Origin: Eubacteriales bacterium
Lineage (GTDB): Bacteria; Bacillota; Clostridia; Lachnospirales; Lachnospiraceae
Length of the DNA stretch: 43,844 bases
Direction of reading: 5' to 3'
NCBI GenBank assembly: GCA_030537135.1
Contig: JAUNOP010000018.1
Span: 1-43,844, forward strand
Shown: in pieces, positions 241-31,756 of the stretch
Position numbering within the stretch: the first letter of the stretch is position 1
Layout: the number at the start of each line of letters is the position of its first letter
Program-made: the position numbers and the translations under genes
The notes under the pieces: generated by a model
Seen by the model: only the letters and a program-made list of their open reading frames with translations
Told to the model about the DNA's origin: nothing
Database searches by the model: none

Positions 241-405
241 AAGGCCTCCCCCCTGAGGGGGAAGACCTGATATTGCTTTATCCGAAGGTTTCTTTTCCTT
301 CTTTTTCAGCCTGACCTTCTGAGGGGAAGATCTGATGTTCTTTTATCCTCTTCCAGCAAGAAGGCTCCGACCTCTAAGGTGGGGGAGGATGTCACCTGAA
401 GTAGG
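241..405. repeat. Decayed short repeats downstream of purL
   Basis: Two similar stretches of about 30 bases (253-283 and 319-348), each running from CTGAGGGG through a TCTGAT- or CCTGAT-like core to TTTATCC, are followed by a third C- and G-rich piece at 370-400 that runs into the purL stop codon. They contain G-run/C-run inverted repeats. They look like worn copies of a short interspersed repeat. No terminator with a T-run is evident for purL here. Confidence 0.35.
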
Positions 406-3400
406 CAACTCCAGACTCAAAAATTCTGATATCCTGTTCTCCGTAAATATTCACGGCCACACCGCCGCCGCGGCGCTCCGAATGAGCCATCTTGCCGAGT
501 ACACGGCCATCCGGACTTGTGATGCCCTCCACTGCGCAGTAGGAGCCGTTCACATTCCATTCTTCGTCATTAACCAGAAGATTTCCGTCTGCATCCACAT
601 ACTGAGTTGCCACCTGTCCGTTTGCAAAGAGCTTTCTGAGCCATTCTTCATTTGCCACAAAGCGTCCCTCTCCGTGAGAAGCCGGATTGCAGTACACACC
701 GCCGAGCTGCGCTTTCTGAAGCCATGGAGACTTATTGCTCACTACCTTTGTGTATACCATCTTAGAGATATGACGTCCAATGGTATTATAGGTCAGAGTC
801 GGAGAGTTTGCATTTTGTCCGGTAATCTCTCCGCCAGGAACCAACCCCAGCTTAATAAGAGCCTGGAAGCCATTGCAGATGCCAAGAGCAAGGCCGTCCC
901 TCTCATTCAGAAGCTTCATCACAGCCTCCTTGATCTTCTCATTCTGGAAGGCGGTTGCAAAGAACTTTGCAGAGCCGTCCGGCTCATCGCCTGCTGAGAA
1001 GCCGCCTGGGAACATGATCATCTGCGCCTGACTGATCGCCTTCTCAAACAGCTCCACAGAATCACGGATATCCTCTGCTGTAAGGTTCTTAAATACCTTC
1101 ACATCCACATTTGCGCCTGCCCTCTCAAAAGCACGGGTGCTGTCATATTCACAGTTTGTTCCTGGAAATACAGGAATAAATACGGTTGGCTTTGCCACCT
1201 TATTCCTGCACACATAGATATTCTTGGTTTCATACAGCTTCACAGAAGAAATGTTTTCCTGCTGTGCCTCTCCGGAATGAGTCCTGAACACGCTCTCCAG
1301 AGTATTCGTCCAGGTTTTCTGTGCCTCGTCCAGAGAAATTTCCATATCTCTGTAGGAAATCGCCGCTTTCTTTGTCACCTCGCCGATAACCGTGTAGGTG
1401 ACAGAAAGGCTTCCGACTCTTCCCTCAGGAACCTCGCAGAGTAAATCTCCAAATCCAGGAACAAAGAGATCTCTCTCATCCACATTGTGTTCTATCTTCA
1501 CACCCATACGATTTCCAAAGGCCATCTTGCTGACAGCAGCAGCAATTCCATGACGATCCAGAGCATAGGCAGAAACAATCCTTCCTTCCTGAATGTCCTC
1601 TCTCACCCGTGCATACAGGTCCATAAGCGCAGGATAATCTGGCAGAGAGTATTCTGCCTTTGGCATACGTATCCATATCAGCTTATTTCCCGGCTTCTTG
1701 AGTTCAGGGGTAATCACATCCTGAAGCTTTGCTGTATCCACGGCAAAGGAGACCAGTGTCGGAGGAACATCTATATCATTAAAGGTACCGGACATACTGT
1801 CCTTTCCTCCTATGGACGGAAGTCCAAAGCCCAGCTGCGCAGAATAAGCGCCAAGGAGAGCTGCAAACGGCTGGCTCCATCTCTTCGGATCCTCTGTCAT
1901 ACGGCGGAAATATTCCTGGAAGGTAAAGCGGATCTTGGAATAATCACCGCCTGCTGCCACAATTCTTGCCACAGATTCCACCACTGCATACACAGCTCCA
2001 TGGTAGGGACTCCAGCTTGAGAGATAAGGGTCAAAGCCATAGGACATCATTGTGACCGTGTTGGTTCTTCCCTTGAGGACAGGAACCTTGGCAACCATAG
2101 CCTGCGTCTCTGTCATCTGGTATTTTCCGCCATAGGGCATGAACACAGAGCCAGCGCCAATGGAGCCGTCAAACATCTCCACAAGTCCCTTCTGGGAGCA
2201 TACGTTCAAATCTCCCAGAACCTCAAGCCATTTTGCCTTCACATCAGCAATGTCTTTCCTCTCCTCAAGAAGATTACCCTCTCTGGATGGGATTTCCACT
2301 GTGACCTCAGTCTCCTGATGCGCGCCGTTGGTATCCAGGAAGGCTCTGGAAATATTCACGATTTCCTTTCCTCTCCACGCCAGAACCAGACGCGGCTCCT
2401 CTGTGACAACAGCAACCTTGACTGCCTCCAGATTCTCCTCATTTGCATATCTCAGGAAGGTATCCACATCCTTAGGATCTACCACAACAGCCATACGCTC
2501 CTGGGATTCCGAGATGGCAATCTCTGTTCCGTCCAGTCCGGCATATTTCTTAGGCACCCTGTCAAGGTCTACACGAAGTCCGCTCGCCAGCTCGCCGATG
2601 GCAACAGAGACTCCGCCCGCGCCAAAGTCATTGCACTTCTTGATGATTGCGCTGACCTCTTCTCTTCGGAACATGCGCTGGATCTTACGCTCTGTGGGTG
2701 CATTTCCCTTCTGCACCTCAGCGCCGCACACCTCAATAGACGCCTCTGTGTGTACCTTGGAGGAGCCTGTGGCGCCGCCGATGCCATCACGGCCGGTACG
2801 TCCGCCCAGAAGGATAATCACATCTCCTGGGTCTGAGTTCTCACGGATAACCGCGCGTCTCGGAGCAGCGCCCAGAACAGCGCCGATTTCCATTCTCTTT
2901 GCCACATAGTTTGGATGATAAATCTCTTTTACATAGCCAGTGGCAAGTCCAATCTGATTTCCATAGGAGCTGTAGCCCTGCGCTGCGCCCCTCACCAGCT
3001 TTTTCTGAGGAAGCTTACCCTTCAGGGTATCCTTCACAGACACAGTGGGGTCGGCGGCTCCTGTCACACGCATAGCCTGATATACATAGGTACGTCCTGA
3101 GAGCGGGTCGCGGATAGCGCCTCCCAAACAGGTGGCAGCGCCGCCGAACGGTTCGATTTCTGTAGGGTGGTTGTGCGTCTCATTCTTGAAATTAATGAGC
3201 CACTCTTCTTCCTTTCCATCCACATCCACAGGAACCACGATGGAGCAGGCATTGATTTCGTCAGATTCCTCCTGGTCCGCAAGCTTTCCCTCTGCCTTAA
3301 GCTTCTTCATGGCAGCAAGAGCCAGATCCATCAGGCACACAAATTTATCGTCTCTTCCTTTATATAAAACCGCTCTGTCCGCAAGATACTGCTCATAGGT

Positions 3401-4156
3401 ATCCTGAATCGGCTTCTTATAATCGCCTTCCTCAAACTCCACCTTTGTAAGCTCTGTGGAAAAGGTGGTATGACGGCAATGGTCAGACCAGTAGGTGTCC
3501 AGAACACGGATTTCTGTCACAGACGGATCTCTCTTCTCTTCTCCCTTAAAATACTTCTGAATATGCAGGAAATCCTTAAAGGTCATGGCAAGATTCAGGG
3601 AGCTGTACAGAGCCTTCAGCTCGTCCTCTGGCATATCCTGAAAGCCCTCAAAGATTTTCACATCCTCCGGCTCGTCAAACACAGTTACCAAAGTCTCTGG
3701 CTTGTCCATGCCTGTCTCTCTGGAGTCTACCGGGTTAATGCAATGGTTCTTGACAGCGGCAAATTCCTCGTCAGAAATATCCCCTTCAATTACATAGGTC
3801 GTAGCAGAGCGGATAATCGGCTGCGCGTCCTCCTTGAGGAACTGCACGCACTGCACTGCTGAGTCTGCTCTCTGGTCAAACTGGCCGGGCAGAAATTCCA
3901 CTGAAAATACACGGGAATTCTCTGCCGTCTCAAAGCTCTCTCTATACAAATCATCTACTGGCGGCTCTGCAAAAACAGTTTTGCAGGCCTTCTCAAAAAC
4001 CTTGTCAGAAAGATTCTCCACATCATAGCGAATCAGCACACGTACACCTGTTACATCCCCGATTCCCAGATAATGCCTGATTTCATGCCGAAGCTCCTTT
4101 GCCCTTACCGCAAAGCCTGGTTTTTTCTCCACATAAACACGTCTTACGTTACTCAT
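392..4156 (-). CDS. purL: Phosphoribosylformylglycinamidine synthase, PurL-PurQ fusion
   Basis: Converts FGAR, glutamine and ATP to FGAM, the fourth step of IMP synthesis, in the cytoplasm. At 1254 residues it is the large single-chain form with synthetase and glutaminase in one protein. The FGAM-synthase core is marked by SDHCRHTTF near residue 230 and by GGAIRDPLSGR. The glutaminase part runs from about residue 989 and starts with VFPGTNCEYD; the triad is Cys1094 (GICNGFQ), His1225 and Glu1227 (AHSER). The start is chosen because AGAAAGGA lies 8 bases before the ATG. It is transcribed away from the LysR gene and is separate from purE-M-N-D at 20-24 kb. A small mobile element sits directly upstream of its Shine-Dalgarno sequence. 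The family call is near certain. Confidence 0.97.
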   Translation of the reverse strand: MSNVRRVYVEKKPGFAVRAKELRHEIRHYLGIGDVTGVRVLIRYDVENLSDKVFEKACKTVFAEPPVDDLYRESFETAENSRVFSVEFLPGQFDQRADSAVQCVQFLKEDAQPIIRSATTYVIEGDISDEEFAAVKNHCINPVDSRETGMDKPETLVTVFDEPEDVKIFEGFQDMPEDELKALYSSLNLAMTFKDFLHIQKYFKGEEKRDPSVTEIRVLDTYWSDHCRHTTFSTELTKVEFEEGDYKKPIQDTYEQYLADRAVLYKGRDDKFVCLMDLALAAMKKLKAEGKLADQEESDEINACSIVVPVDVDGKEEEWLINFKNETHNHPTEIEPFGGAATCLGGAIRDPLSGRTYVYQAMRVTGAADPTVSVKDTLKGKLPQKKLVRGAAQGYSSYGNQIGLATGYVKEIYHPNYVAKRMEIGAVLGAAPRRAVIRENSDPGDVIILLGGRTGRDGIGGATGSSKVHTEASIEVCGAEVQKGNAPTERKIQRMFRREEVSAIIKKCNDFGAGGVSVAIGELASGLRVDLDRVPKKYAGLDGTEIAISESQERMAVVVDPKDVDTFLRYANEENLEAVKVAVVTEEPRLVLAWRGKEIVNISRAFLDTNGAHQETEVTVEIPSREGNLLEERKDIADVKAKWLEVLGDLNVCSQKGLVEMFDGSIGAGSVFMPYGGKYQMTETQAMVAKVPVLKGRTNTVTMMSYGFDPYLSSWSPYHGAVYAVVESVARIVAAGGDYSKIRFTFQEYFRRMTEDPKRWSQPFAALLGAYSAQLGFGLPSIGGKDSMSGTFNDIDVPPTLVSFAVDTAKLQDVITPELKKPGNKLIWIRMPKAEYSLPDYPALMDLYARVREDIQEGRIVSAYALDRHGIAAAVSKMAFGNRMGVKIEHNVDERDLFVPGFGDLLCEVPEGRVGSLSVTYTVIGEVTKKAAISYRDMEISLDEAQKTWTNTLESVFRTHSGEAQQENISSVKLYETKNIYVCRNKVAKPTVFIPVFPGTNCEYDSTRAFERAGANVDVKVFKNLTAEDIRDSVELFEKAISQAQMIMFPGGFSAGDEPDGSAKFFATAFQNEKIKEAVMKLLNERDGLALGICNGFQALIKLGLVPGGEITGQNANSPTLTYNTIGRHISKMVYTKVVSNKSPWLQKAQLGGVYCNPASHGEGRFVANEEWLRKLFANGQVATQYVDADGNLLVNDEEWNVNGSYCAVEGITSPDGRVLGKMAHSERRGGGVAVNIYGEQDIRIFESGVAYFR

Positions 4157-4172
4157 AAAACAGGTCCTTTCT

Positions 4173-4233
4173 GTTACTGTTCACGTGCGGCTGCTTTATC
4201 AAGCGTACTGCTGTGAACAAGGTGAACAGTAAC
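4173..4233. mobile_element. MITE-like element, copy A (short, 61 bp), in purL leader
   Basis: The ends are perfect 12-bp inverted repeats, GTTACTGTTCAC and GTGAACAGTAAC. It is flanked on both sides by TCCTTTCT (4165-4172 and 4234-4241), a perfect 8-bp target duplication. Its right 35 bases match the right ends of the 133-bp copies at 13392 and 31587, so it is an internally deleted member. On the minus strand the duplicated site reads AGAAAGGA, which is the ribosome site of purL; the insertion therefore copied that site rather than destroying it. It has no coding capacity. Confidence 0.85.
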
Positions 4234-4291
4234 TCCTTTCTTGTAGTGTAATCAATAAGTGTTCTGTCTTTGTTGCTTTTTTTTCAGTTTT

Positions 4292-12862: not shown

Positions 12863-13011
12863 TTATGCCCTTCCTTTCTTCTGCTGTCAACAATAGCTGC
12901 GCAGCCATACACAACAAGCCTTTGCATCTGATATCCTGCGAGTATTTCAGACAGGCAAATCCCCTGCTCTTATTACTCCCCCAAATGGAGGAGAGGGACT
13001 TCCCTGATACG

Positions 13012-13239
13012 TCAAATCTCTGTAAAGGAGCATCTCTGCTTCATCTGGGATGTGGTGATATCAAAAACAAGGGTTCCGTCTGCAAGCATAGTTTTCTCAT
13101 AGGAAACCTCCTTGCCCTCGAATTTCTTTTTCACATATTCTTCCGGGTCATCAAGCATGAGTTCCTCTACCATTACATCGCGCATCTGATTTCTTGGACA
13201 TTTATTAAAAATCTCCCATATGACTTCGTATTCTTTCAT
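13012..13239 (-). CDS. Conserved small protein, function unknown
   Basis: 75 residues starting MKEYEVIWEIFNKCPRNQMR. The ATG at 13239 is preferred over an upstream in-frame ATG because AGGAGAAGG lies immediately before it. The protein is acidic, without membrane segments or cysteine pairs, and carries DGTLVFDI near its end. I recognise the general look of a small cytoplasmic Lachnospiraceae protein but no named family. It stands alone, with the CsoR gene 150 bases downstream. Confidence 0.65.
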   Translation of the reverse strand: MKEYEVIWEIFNKCPRNQMRDVMVEELMLDDPEEYVKKKFEGKEVSYEKTMLADGTLVFDITTSQMKQRCSFTEI

Positions 13240-13359
13240 TTTCCTTCTCCTTCCTGCTTCCCAGTATATCCGAAAGCAGGCCGTATATTCTGCTCTGCCA
13301 AATATTTGCGGCTGTCCGTTTACTATTATAATTTTTTTCCTGTATTTTGTCAAAAAGAA

Positions 13360-13388
13360 TTGTGTTTTGGTACATTTTATCGTATGAT
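13360..13388 (+). promoter_or_regulatory. Candidate xpt promoter
   Basis: TTGTGT (13360-13365), a 17-bp spacer and TATGAT (13383-13388). The predicted transcription start falls at the left end of mobile element copy B, so the xpt transcript would carry the whole element in its leader. The rest of the gap 13240-13589 holds only that element. Confidence 0.5.
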
Positions 13389-13391
13389 GGT

Positions 13392-13524
13392 GTTACTGTT
13401 CACGAACGACTATTTTGCGAGGTACTTTGGTGCCTCTGCCACAAAAATTCCAAGGTAAGCAGCGCCAAATGCGGCATTCCTGTGCAGCGCGAAGCGTGTT
13501 GCTGTGAACGCAGTGAACAGTAAC
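13392..13524. mobile_element. MITE-like element, copy B (133 bp), in xpt leader
   Basis: It has 12-bp inverted ends identical to the other copies and is about 86 % identical to copy C (31587-31719), counted by eye, with exactly the same length. The flanks ATGATGGT and AGAATGGT agree at 6 of 8 positions, consistent with an aged 8-bp duplication. Internal inverted repeats pair GCGG with CC-T-GTGC where copy C has GCAG with CTGTGC. No reading frame is kept. Confidence 0.85.
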
Positions 13525-13589
13525 AGAATGGTTAATAATCTAATCAGACAACAACATCTGCTGTCATTTTTTATGGAGGAGAACTTGTT

Positions 13590-14159
13590 ATGCAGCTTCT
13601 AAAGGACCGTATTTTAAAAGACGGAGTCGTAAAACCGGGAAATGTCCTCAAGGTGGACAGCTTTCTCAATCATCAGATGGATATTGCATTTATCAATGAG
13701 CTTGGAAAGGAATTCAAAGCGCGTTTTGCCAGTCAGCCCATCACCAAAATCCTGACCATTGAGGCGTCTGGCATTGGTATAGCCTGTATTGCGGCACAAT
13801 ACTTTCATGTTCCTGTGGTATTCGCCAAAAAGGCACAGAGCATCAACCTTGACGGAGAAATGTACACTTCCAAAATAGAATCCTTTACTCACAAAAAGGT
13901 TTATGACGTCATCATATCAAAGAAATTTCTCACTCCAGAGGATCATGTATTAATTATCGACGATTTCCTTGCCAATGGCTGCGCGCTCATAGGGCTTATT
14001 GATATTGTAAATAAATCCGGAGCCGTTCTGGAAGGCGCCGGAATTGTAATTGAAAAGGGTTTTCAGTCCGGAGGGCAGCGAATCCGGGATATGGGAGTCC
14101 ATCTTGAATCCCTGGCCATTATTGATCATATGACAGACAGTGAAGTTTGCTTTCGCTGA
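13590..14159 (+). CDS. xpt: Xanthine phosphoribosyltransferase
   Basis: 189 residues, the family's usual size. Salvages xanthine with PRPP to XMP in the cytoplasm. [29 protein letters not shown] is the standard N-terminus, and [15 protein letters not shown] near residue 130 is the PRPP-binding loop. LTIEASGI (around residue 52) is also typical. GGAGGAGAAC precedes the ATG. Its leader contains a mobile element instead of a recognisable purine riboswitch, which often controls xpt in Firmicutes. No permease gene follows. Confidence 0.96.
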
Positions 14160-30137: not shown

Positions 30138-31064
30138 TTATCTGCTTTGAAGCGCCTGACTGATATCTGTTACCATGTCCTTGACGGCCTGACGGGAAGC
30201 GTCCGCATAGGCTCTCTCTCCAAAGGAGGCATATTTCTCCTGCTTATAGGCAGCAATAATTCCTCTGGAAGAATTCACAATCGCTCCCAGACCATCCTTG
30301 TCAAAGAAATGCACAAGATCTGCCCCCTTTCCGCCCTGCGCGCCATAACCCGGCACCAGGATAAAGGTCTTTGGCATAAGTTTTCTCAAAATTCTTCCCT
30401 GCTCAGGATAGGTAGCTCCCACTACTGCGCCGATATAACTATAGGAAGCTCCCATGTGATCTGTTCCCCACTCGTTTACCTTCTCTCCTACCCATTCATA
30501 AAGCGGACGGCCGTCAATGATTCTGTCCTGAAACTCGCCGCTGGACGGATTCGATGTTTTTACAAGAATGAATAATCCCTTTTTTTCCTGCTTACATACG
30601 TCAATGAATGGTTTTACACAGTCTGTTCCCATGTAGGGATTGATAGTGGCAAAGTCCTCGTCAAAGGGTACATAGGTTTTGCTTCCTACCTGTACTCTTC
30701 CCAAATGACCGACTGCATAGGCAGCTGAGGTGGAACCGATATCTCCTCTCTTGATATCTCCGATGACAATTAGCCCTTTTTCCTTACAGTAATCCACAGT
30801 TTTCTTATAGGCAATCACGCCTTCCACGCCAAACTGCTCATACATGGCAATCTGGGGCTTTACTGCTGGGATAAGGTCATACACAGCGTCTACAATTCCC
30901 TTATTAAACTGCCAAATGGCCTCTGCTGCTCCCTTAAGAGTCTCTCCATGCTCCTTAAATGCTTGTTCCTTAATATAAGAAGGAACATAAGCAAGCATAG
31001 GGTCCAGTCCTACCACAACAGGTGCGTTTGTCTTCTGAATTTTCTCAATCAGCGTGTTTATCAT
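30138..31064 (-). CDS. pyrF: Orotidine 5'-phosphate decarboxylase, subfamily 2
   Basis: 308 residues from ATG 31064, chosen because AAGGAGA lies 8 bases upstream and MINTLIEKIQ is the family start; the longer frame crosses a mobile element. Converts OMP to UMP. VVGLDPML near the start and the catalytic Asp-Lys-x2-Asp in GDIKRGDIGST mark it, and its length is that of the larger subfamily 2 form. It is first of pyrF-K-D-E. Its leader carries mobile element copy D. No PyrR-type attenuator was recognised. Confidence 0.97.
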   Translation of the reverse strand: MINTLIEKIQKTNAPVVVGLDPMLAYVPSYIKEQAFKEHGETLKGAAEAIWQFNKGIVDAVYDLIPAVKPQIAMYEQFGVEGVIAYKKTVDYCKEKGLIVIGDIKRGDIGSTSAAYAVGHLGRVQVGSKTYVPFDEDFATINPYMGTDCVKPFIDVCKQEKKGLFILVKTSNPSSGEFQDRIIDGRPLYEWVGEKVNEWGTDHMGASYSYIGAVVGATYPEQGRILRKLMPKTFILVPGYGAQGGKGADLVHFFDKDGLGAIVNSSRGIIAAYKQEKYASFGERAYADASRQAVKDMVTDISQALQSR

Positions 31065-31112
31065 CTGAAAATCTCCTTTTTTAACTTGTCTTAGCAAGAA
31101 GTCTCCCACTTC

Positions 31113-31246
31113 GTTACTGTTCACTCCGTTCGCAGTAACGAAGCCAAAATTCCAGATTGCCTGCGGCAATGGAATTTTGGCTTGTATGTCTCGAGATTTT
31201 GGCATATACATGCCAAAACACCTCGCGGGACAGTAGCCGTGTGAAC
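31113..31246. mobile_element. MITE-like element, copy D (134 bp, inverted), in pyrF leader
   Basis: It lies in reverse orientation to copies B and C. GTTACTGTTCAC is intact on the left; the right end is shortened to GTGTGAAC. CCCACTTC lies directly on both sides (31105-31112 and 31247-31254), a perfect 8-bp duplication. Inside are a hairpin GCCAAAATTCCA/TGGAATTTTGGC (31143-31181) and a TTTTGGCAT/ATGCCAAAA hairpin (about 31196-31218). The first replaces, with unrelated sequence, the hairpin seen at that place in copies B and C. Confidence 0.8.
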
Positions 31247-31254
31247 CCCACTTC

Positions 31255-31578
31255 CAAAGCGGCAAGGATGCATTGCCATCCATTCTTGTTTTTTCTAAAA
31301 ATACTGCTATACTAAATACAATGATTAGTACATTGACAGCGAGAAATCCCCCTCTTCTTAAGTGGTGGGAGCACGTCACACAATTGTGCCTTCTCCCTCG
31401 CTTTTCTGCGCAGAAAGAGATATGCACATCTCTATACATTACTATACACGAAAATTGTCATATTAGCAAATTATTTTTATGAACCTTTGTCCGGGAGTTA
31501 TTATAAAAGGTTCCTGTTCACAGGGACTATAAAAGTTCTCACTTAAAGTGGAGGCCTCCTTGACACGTTCAAACTGTG
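31255..31578. other. Non-coding stretch between copies D and C
   Basis: No supported gene; short open frames lack ribosome sites. AT-rich parts at 31300-31330 may hold the pyrF promoter, but no convincing -35/-10 pair was found. The whole gap 31065-31923 is taken up by copies D and C, this stretch, and the csp promoter and leader. Confidence 0.4.
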
Positions 31579-31586
31579 CTGTTTTT

Positions 31587-31719
31587 GTTACTGTTCACGG
31601 GCGACTATTCCGCGAGGTGTTTTCGTGCCTCTGGCATGAAAATCCCGAGATAATCGGCGCGAAATGCAGCATTTCTGTGCATCGCGAAGCGTGTTGCTGT
31701 GAACGCAGTGAACAGTAAC
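31587..31719. mobile_element. MITE-like element, copy C (133 bp), upstream of csp
   Basis: Perfect 12-bp inverted ends and a perfect 8-bp duplication CTGTTTTT at 31579-31586 and 31720-31727. Inner hairpins are TTTTCGTGCC/GGCATGAAAA, all paired with one G-T, and CGCG-AATGCAG/CTGTGCAT-CGCG. It is the best-preserved copy and defines the family. It ends 37 bases before the csp -35. No coding capacity. Confidence 0.9.
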
Positions 31720-31756
31720 CTGTTTTTAGAGAGAAACGAAAACTTTCAGATTTTTC

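Follow-up and report, generated by a model that had tools for sequence, protein, structure and literature searches.

The window analysed here, a stretch of 43,844 bp, is contig C47 of a draft genome that we took as Blautia (3.07 Mb in 103 contigs, 91% complete). The 12-mer GTTACTGTTCAC occurs in it seven times exactly, and with up to two mismatches it is matched eight times, against 2.0 matches expected from shuffles. These sequences delimit four copies of a short repeat, three with both 12-bp ends and one with an incomplete end. Two full copies, both on the minus strand, are 133 bp each, the equal length first reported for them. The one at 31587-31719 has perfect 12-bp inverted ends and lies between two copies of CTGTTTTT (31579-31586 and 31720-31727); it is a subfamily A element that lacks 10 bp internally and carries a 27-bp end unit on its minus-strand 5' side. 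The other, at 13392-13524, is flanked on the left by ATGATGGT (13384-13391) and on the right by AGAATGGT (13525-13532), which agree at 6 of 8 positions. A third minus-strand copy, of 61 bp (4173-4233), is internally deleted with its 12-bp ends intact and is bounded by TCCTTTCT at 4165-4172 and 4234-4241. The fourth, a 134-bp copy of subfamily B on the plus strand (31113-31246), lies between copies of CCCACTTC at 31105-31112 and 31247-31254. The original prediction, that four copies share 12-bp inverted ends and abut 8-bp direct repeats, three perfect and one matching at 6 of 8, was borne out in the number and places of the copies and in all of the repeats. It did not hold for the right end of the 31113 copy: there the 12-mer is present on the left only, and the right end, having lost its final 6 bp (AGTAAC), finishes in GTGAAC directly at the duplication.

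A purL-like gene (392-4156, minus strand) has the 61-bp copy inserted at its likely ribosome-binding site. On that strand the duplication of the copy reads AGAAAGGA, and the Shine-Dalgarno-like sequence of the gene is thereby doubled (window 4165-4241). Upstream of an OMP-decarboxylase-like (pyrF-like) gene (30138-31064, minus strand), the 31113 copy is about 48 bp from the likely start, which was placed by eye; the 13392 copy is in the leader of an xpt-like phosphoribosyltransferase gene (13590-14159; PF00156), beside a TATGAT that by eye resembles a -10 element. The xpt-like leader has different end-like sequences at two loci from other Blautia, GTTACTGTTCAT in L317 (1986-2086) and GTAACTATTCAG in both L317 and L319, which suggests that it may have been hit by repeated insertions; in certain other relatives the leader is longer or unlike this one. 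Long open reading frames that cross copies in the window, 12865-13458 on the plus strand and 30138-31439 on the minus strand, look spurious or over-extended. The former is probably spurious and is antisense to a small conserved reading frame of about 75 amino acids (13012-13239, minus strand), which begins MKEYEVIWEIFNKC. The longer reading frame listed there (13012-13353) gave no Pfam match, and the region is found again in 48 of the 64 Blautia genomes.

Target duplications and empty sites

The genome as a whole contains 74 exact copies of GTTACTGTTCAC and none of the reversed pattern, which served as a control. Its loci include 13 pairs of exact ends at a spacing of 40-260 bp, and the adjoining 8 bases are identical in 11 pairs, match at 6 of 8 positions in one and at 2 of 8 in one (L005, where by eye a 1-bp shift gives a six-base match). 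Over all loci, the 71 distinct pairs with both ends exact had duplications of 8/8 in 43 cases, 7/8 in 10, 6/8 in 7 and at most 4 in 11; exchanging the right flanks among these 71 elements (4,970 comparisons) gave no match of 8/8, one of at least 7 and 46 of at least 6, and the claim that the duplications are beyond chance is upheld accordingly. In total, 88 distinct elements of 61-198 bp were collected that have 12-bp ends and a duplication of at least 6/8. The target sequence is only mildly AT-rich (0.69 vs 0.65). Terminator hairpins had seemed, by eye and from a few sites, to be preferred for insertion, but this was not supported: the mean folding energy was -5.7 at 48 sites, and 50-200 bases away from them it ranged from -5.1 to -7.8. 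At L028 (1378-1528) and L137 (3459-3660) two end units stand in tandem with one 8-mer in common, so that some apparent duplications may reflect tandem copying and not insertion.

Empty sites were sought by joining the two flanks of each of 114 distinct insertions (duplications matching at 7 or 8 of 8) and comparing them with the loci collected, which gave 53 spanning matches, mostly the insertions themselves. The site of a 93-bp element of L089, flanked by CCAGAAAT twice, is represented in another Blautia genome (L087) by a single exact CCAGAAAT, and that of a 198-bp element of L093 (AAAATATA twice) by one 8-mer alike at 7/8, AAAATTTA, in Blautia sp. MSJ-9 (L218). Similarly, a 2,237-bp insertion sequence (IS) of L257, flanked by GACATGCT twice, has a counterpart in the same genome (L095) with a single GACATGCT and a 98% match over 112 bp. 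As for the 13392 copy, the leaders of five relatives (L321, L334, L336, L318 and L331) are free of the insert, with a promoter-like block that continues to the start codon; their 8 target bases are only 5-6/8 alike to those at 13392, and these leaders thus show where the insert lies, though not precisely where the target was cut.

The original prediction had read the repeats as miniature inverted-repeat transposable elements (MITEs), and had named empty sites without single-copy 8-mers, or copies across the genome without duplications, as grounds for giving that reading up. Most exact pairs in the genome are in fact duplication-flanked, the 8-mer stands once at the empty sites of both a mini-element and an IS, and elements that are short, transposase-free and bounded by inverted ends and 8-bp duplications fit the description of a MITE.

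IS66-type elements with similar ends

It had also been proposed that a parent transposase with the same ends should exist in this or related genomes, outside the window, with IS66 and ISL3 among the families named for their 8-bp duplications. No transposase match was found in the draft genome, window included; the relatives do contain such a gene. A search for the IS66 DDE domain gave 22 matches in 6 of 10 genomes, nine of them low-scoring, mostly in reading frames of 565-570 amino acids. The ends of 2.2-kb IS66-type elements in relatives read GTTACTGTTCA(A/C), some with perfect 8-bp duplications; four of the low-scoring matches (L249, L255, L257 and L259) lie in elements 2,237-2,242 bp long whose ends read GTTACTGTTCAA and whose 8-bp duplications are perfect. 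By protein search, relatives of the transposase, fragments and 30%-identical proteins included, were found in 19 of 64 Blautia genomes. The resemblance to the mini-elements is closest at a few loci. In L307, a locus of a metagenome-assembled genome that carries the end unit, the exact 12-mer stands at both IS ends, with no duplication. L276, a 2,253-bp element with a 527-amino-acid transposase, has ends GTTACTGTTCAC/GTTACAGTTCAC, the first an exact match, and TGCTTTTC on both sides, and in L273 and L294 single GTTACTGTTCAC ends lie at IS66-type transposase genes or fragments. The end in L275 is GTTACTTTTCAC, with CGCCGGGG flanking both sides. Matching flanks were absent in four two-ended IS copies, L307, L299, L243 (ends GTTACTGTTCAG) and L260. 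Ends in the closest IS clades begin GTTAC, not GTAAC; in L279/L292 the end reads GTAACAGTTCAG. At base 12 the mini-elements have C, where the commonest IS clade has A or G.

The transposases score 71.8 and 77.9 bits against Pfam PF03050 (cut-off 23.1), and 143.8, 153.7 and 136.5 bits against the NCBIfam IS66 transposase equivalog, all under its cut-off of 180; we therefore call them IS66-type, ISBst12-like, and do not file them as IS66 members. They are 527-581 amino acids long, are encoded by one large reading frame in each of three IS copies, and have invariant D303, D353 and E475 (L276 numbering), which by eye we assign as a DDE-like triad. L276 has in addition a small reading frame of about 80 amino acids upstream of the transposase (about 1025-1269), coiled-coil-like by eye.

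Other candidate parents were tried and rejected. IS256 (PF00872) is present in 4 of 8 genomes, with no GTTACTG-type ends in 12 loci. ISL3 (PF01610) is present in 3 of 10 genomes, and its ends where found (G079) are GGTTCTTCC/GGTTCTTTCC, of the GGTTCTT type; of the two families named beforehand, it is thus IS66 that fits. Classical IS66 elements of G004 have ends GTAAGCGTC, with an 8-bp duplication. No long element was found near 17 single-end loci of the window's own genome or near 20 partial matches in relatives.

Distribution of mini-elements and transposases

The element family is widespread in Lachnospiraceae, beyond the genome in which it was noticed. A query element (L003:1501-1643) has matches in 28 of 64 Blautia genomes. 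The exact 12-mer was found in 17 of 41 genomes, all 17 of the same genus, and was absent from the 16 genomes that belong to the order but to other families. A stricter end pattern of 27 positions, 26 of them specified, matched at least 115 stretches in genome contigs, and the matches listed come from Blautia, Kineothrix alysoides, Oliverpabstia intestinalis, and Lachnospiraceae, Eubacterium and Eubacteriales records. No match was found in viral contigs with a 19-position end pattern, or in plasmids by blastn. Two records labelled "UNVERIFIED: Bacteriophage sp." carry elements (L060, MT836813.1; L061, MT838670.1). L061 has in common with the chromosome of G078 (L111, about 5580) a decayed end unit and the 8 bases that flank it; on this ground L061 may be misclassified chromosomal DNA, and both phage contigs are perhaps chromosomal. 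The original prediction knew of no named family with these ends, and none was found in the literature searched for the end sequences, for IS66/ISBst12 with MITEs, and for Lachnospiraceae or Blautia repeats, a search that lay outside ISfinder.

Co-occurrence of mini-elements and transposases in the 64 Blautia genomes is loose. Mini-elements are present in 28 and transposases in 19; 12 genomes have both, 16 the mini-element only, 7 the transposase only and 29 neither, and at least four of the seven transposase-only genomes (G006, G009, G010 and G017) hold exact 12-mers. The transposase profile matched in 8 of 28 carrier genomes, mostly fragments, a count in which eight carriers had been pre-selected as negative (G000, G004, G046, G061, G063, G066, G072 and G079), making 8 of 20 the fairer figure; near full-length genes were found in just two of the 20 newly screened carriers (G084 and G090). 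The match is absent in Kineothrix and in G004, an assembly of 4 contigs that is 100% complete. Such carriers would be explained by a transposase that mobilised the elements in the past and was then lost, by gaps in drafts, or by a second transposase. Nor does the interior of the mini-elements resemble that of six IS copies: of 1,442 short matches the longest span 17-18 bp, and among the matches listed these fall mostly at the ends. The mini-elements are therefore not simple internal-deletion derivatives of those copies.

Taken together, these data could be read to mean that another transposase, with the same terminal motif and an 8-bp cut, moves the mini-elements and that the ISBst12-like elements are only similar. 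The 20 of 28 carriers without a transposase match (eight of the 20 being the pre-selected negatives), the distinct interior and the C at base 12 would all agree with this. Yet L276, L307, L273 and L294 bear GTTACTGTTCAC itself beside IS66-type transposase genes or fragments, and the IS256, ISL3 and classical IS66 candidates have other ends or are missing. We consider a different transposase unlikely, and favour, with a probability of roughly 0.8, the reading that the mini-elements are MITEs with IS66/ISBst12-type ends on which a transposase of that type would act in trans.

A folded core and the 27-bp units

The inner parts of 79 elements (130-150 bp) fold more strongly than dinucleotide shuffles (40 each), with a mean z of -4.2 and z below -2 in 74 of the 79. 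Subfamilies whose stem sequences differ share one plan, in which the 27-bp palindromic end unit is followed by hairpin 1, then by a spacer and hairpin 2, and last by the left end. Rfam gave only tRNAs in the window and eight loci. In a MAFFT alignment of 28 elements, the structure found by RNAalifold consisted mainly of the end stem and part of hairpin 1, with changes on both sides in 6 of 22 pairs; the subfamilies align poorly, and hairpin 1 was therefore examined anchored on its loop. In the 36 of 79 elements selected for the upper-loop motif (21 distinct hairpins), the lower stem, a 7-nt 5' bulge and the upper stem recur, and the bulge reads ATNNNA(A/G) in 18 of the 21. Swapping arms between elements lowers the pairing of the lower stem from 93% to 65% and that of the upper stem from 98% to 76%; the register of 5 or 6 upper pairs was set by one A-T pair, itself uncounted, and weaker lower stems (L180, 6/8; L203, 4/8; L137 at 3519, 3/8) were kept in the averages. 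For hairpin 2, 17 distinct sequences with the loop CAGYNARTG differ in their stems and form pairs at 6-8 of the 8 positions; the set was chosen by its loop motif, and the constancy of the loop is accordingly no evidence.

Compensatory changes thus keep the bulged hairpin across subfamilies, for which selection for structure is one reading. Alternatively, one arm of the palindrome could have been copied onto the other in replication, a process that alone leaves the constant bulge unexplained. The strong hairpins, the compensatory changes between subfamilies and the position of copies in gene leaders might even suggest that the repeats are structured regulatory RNAs, such as terminators, processing signals or riboswitch-like elements, whose copies stem from recombination and which are not transposons at all. 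Ordinary RNA genes, however, would not be expected to have duplications fixed at 8 bp, empty sites with one copy of the target or ends in common with an IS, and Rfam returned nothing beyond the tRNAs. We regard this as very improbable and as contradicted as a sole explanation; a regulatory role may exist alongside transposition. The interior may, with a probability well below even, be a functional structured module, acting as RNA or as a folded single strand with a protein that recognises it, which would ride on ISBst12-type ends through Lachnospiraceae and supply regulatory leaders. In this reading the 7-nt bulge is held constant as compensatory changes replace the stems on either side of it.

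The 27-bp end unit also stands by itself. Among such units in loci of the window's own genome, 8 of 30 are directly flanked by duplications of 7-8/8, and 18 such minis were found in the 80 loci examined, identical to the end unit of full copies. Several species have them, as would be expected if they were mobile units in themselves, the smallest duplication-flanked transposons and not remnants. A length of 27 bp, however, leaves little space for a two-ended synapse, and of three A-type minis two retain CAGCAAC (the third has CAATAAC), which is internal and not terminal sequence; moreover, full copies have direct repeats flanking the core that the minis lack. Independent mobility of the minis appears improbable. 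The simplest account of the minis would be deletion between the CAG(T/C)AAC repeats on either side of the hairpin core. A 37-bp element with ends GTTACTATTCAC/GTTGCTGTGAAC and a perfect 8-bp duplication, GATGATTT, was seen in a 6.1-Mb Lachnospiraceae genome (L312:1726-1762) and is another derivative under 40 bp, with a related end type.

Discussion

The mini-elements could have spread in a few steps. First, an ISBst12-like transposase would bind the ends common to IS and mini-element, acting in trans on the latter. Second, the mini-element would be inserted by way of a staggered cut of 8 bp. The interior, with its 27-bp palindromic end unit and two hairpins, is a separate structured module that does not derive from the IS copies compared. 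Finally, slippage between the CAG(T/C)AAC repeats, one at positions 21-27 and one at the far end, may remove the hairpin core and leave the 27-bp minis.

A widespread Lachnospiraceae repeat tied to a transposase type gives annotators a family to recognise and offers a testable pair of donor and transposase. The folded core, together with the copies in leaders of nucleotide-metabolism genes, makes these elements a candidate source of new regulatory leaders; if the interior is indeed a functional module, a ready-made regulatory leader would have been brought to the purL-, pyrF- and xpt-like genes. The 27-bp copies hint at a route by which such elements decay.

The presumed parents most resemble the ISBst12 group of the IS66 family. 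Its member ISDge4 has ends GTGACTACTCAGCA/GTAACTGCTCAGCA, an 8-bp repeat and a 449-amino-acid transposase, according to the accessible text of the report (PMC12898284). The group's 8-bp duplication is found here too, ends such as GTAACTATTCA(G/C) and GTAACTGCTCAG are near GTTACTGTTCAC, and the presumed Blautia parents have one large transposase gene, with the small extra reading frame beside it in L276; their transposases (527-581 amino acids) are longer than the 449 given for ISDge4 (PMC12898284). The mini-elements differ from the group in being transposase-free and in having T, not A, as third end base. In Geobacillus, ISGst1, which is annotated IS66-like, is bounded by GTAACTATTCAG/GTAACTATTCAC with AAAAGAAC twice and is probably a member of the group, and an element of Nostoc has ends GTAACTGCCCAG/GTAACTGCCTAG with ATTTTACG twice. 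The same report, in its accessible part, calls the movement of ISDge4 the first for the ISBst12 group, and its reference list describes ISBst12 itself as an insertion that switches off an S-layer gene (PMC12898284); documented movements of this type are few in the literature consulted, in so far as its text was accessible. ISBst12-group copies are listed for Geobacillus kaustophilus, and the accessible part of that account makes no mention of mini-elements (PMC8024623).

Among bacterial MITEs, a parallel is offered by RUP of Streptococcus pneumoniae, which in the accessible text of PMC2229807 is short and gene-free, with ends that match those of the resident IS630-Spn1 and with mobilisation presumed in trans. 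As described there, RUP has TA targets and IS630-type ends, whereas the mini-elements have an 8-bp duplication and IS66/ISBst12-type ends. ERIC, Correia/NEMIS and other bacterial MITEs are characterised in that text as about 100-200 bp long, mostly with terminal inverted repeats, and as having strongly folding transcripts (PMC2229807). Most are said there to carry a terminal TA (PMC2229807), whereas our elements begin GTTAC, a distinction drawn from description and not from sequence. Compared with ERIC and Correia/NEMIS, several subfamilies of the mini-elements hold to one bulged hairpin plan with differing stems. Our results thus describe a family of a kind already known, a MITE with IS-type ends, in which the conserved folded core is unusual.
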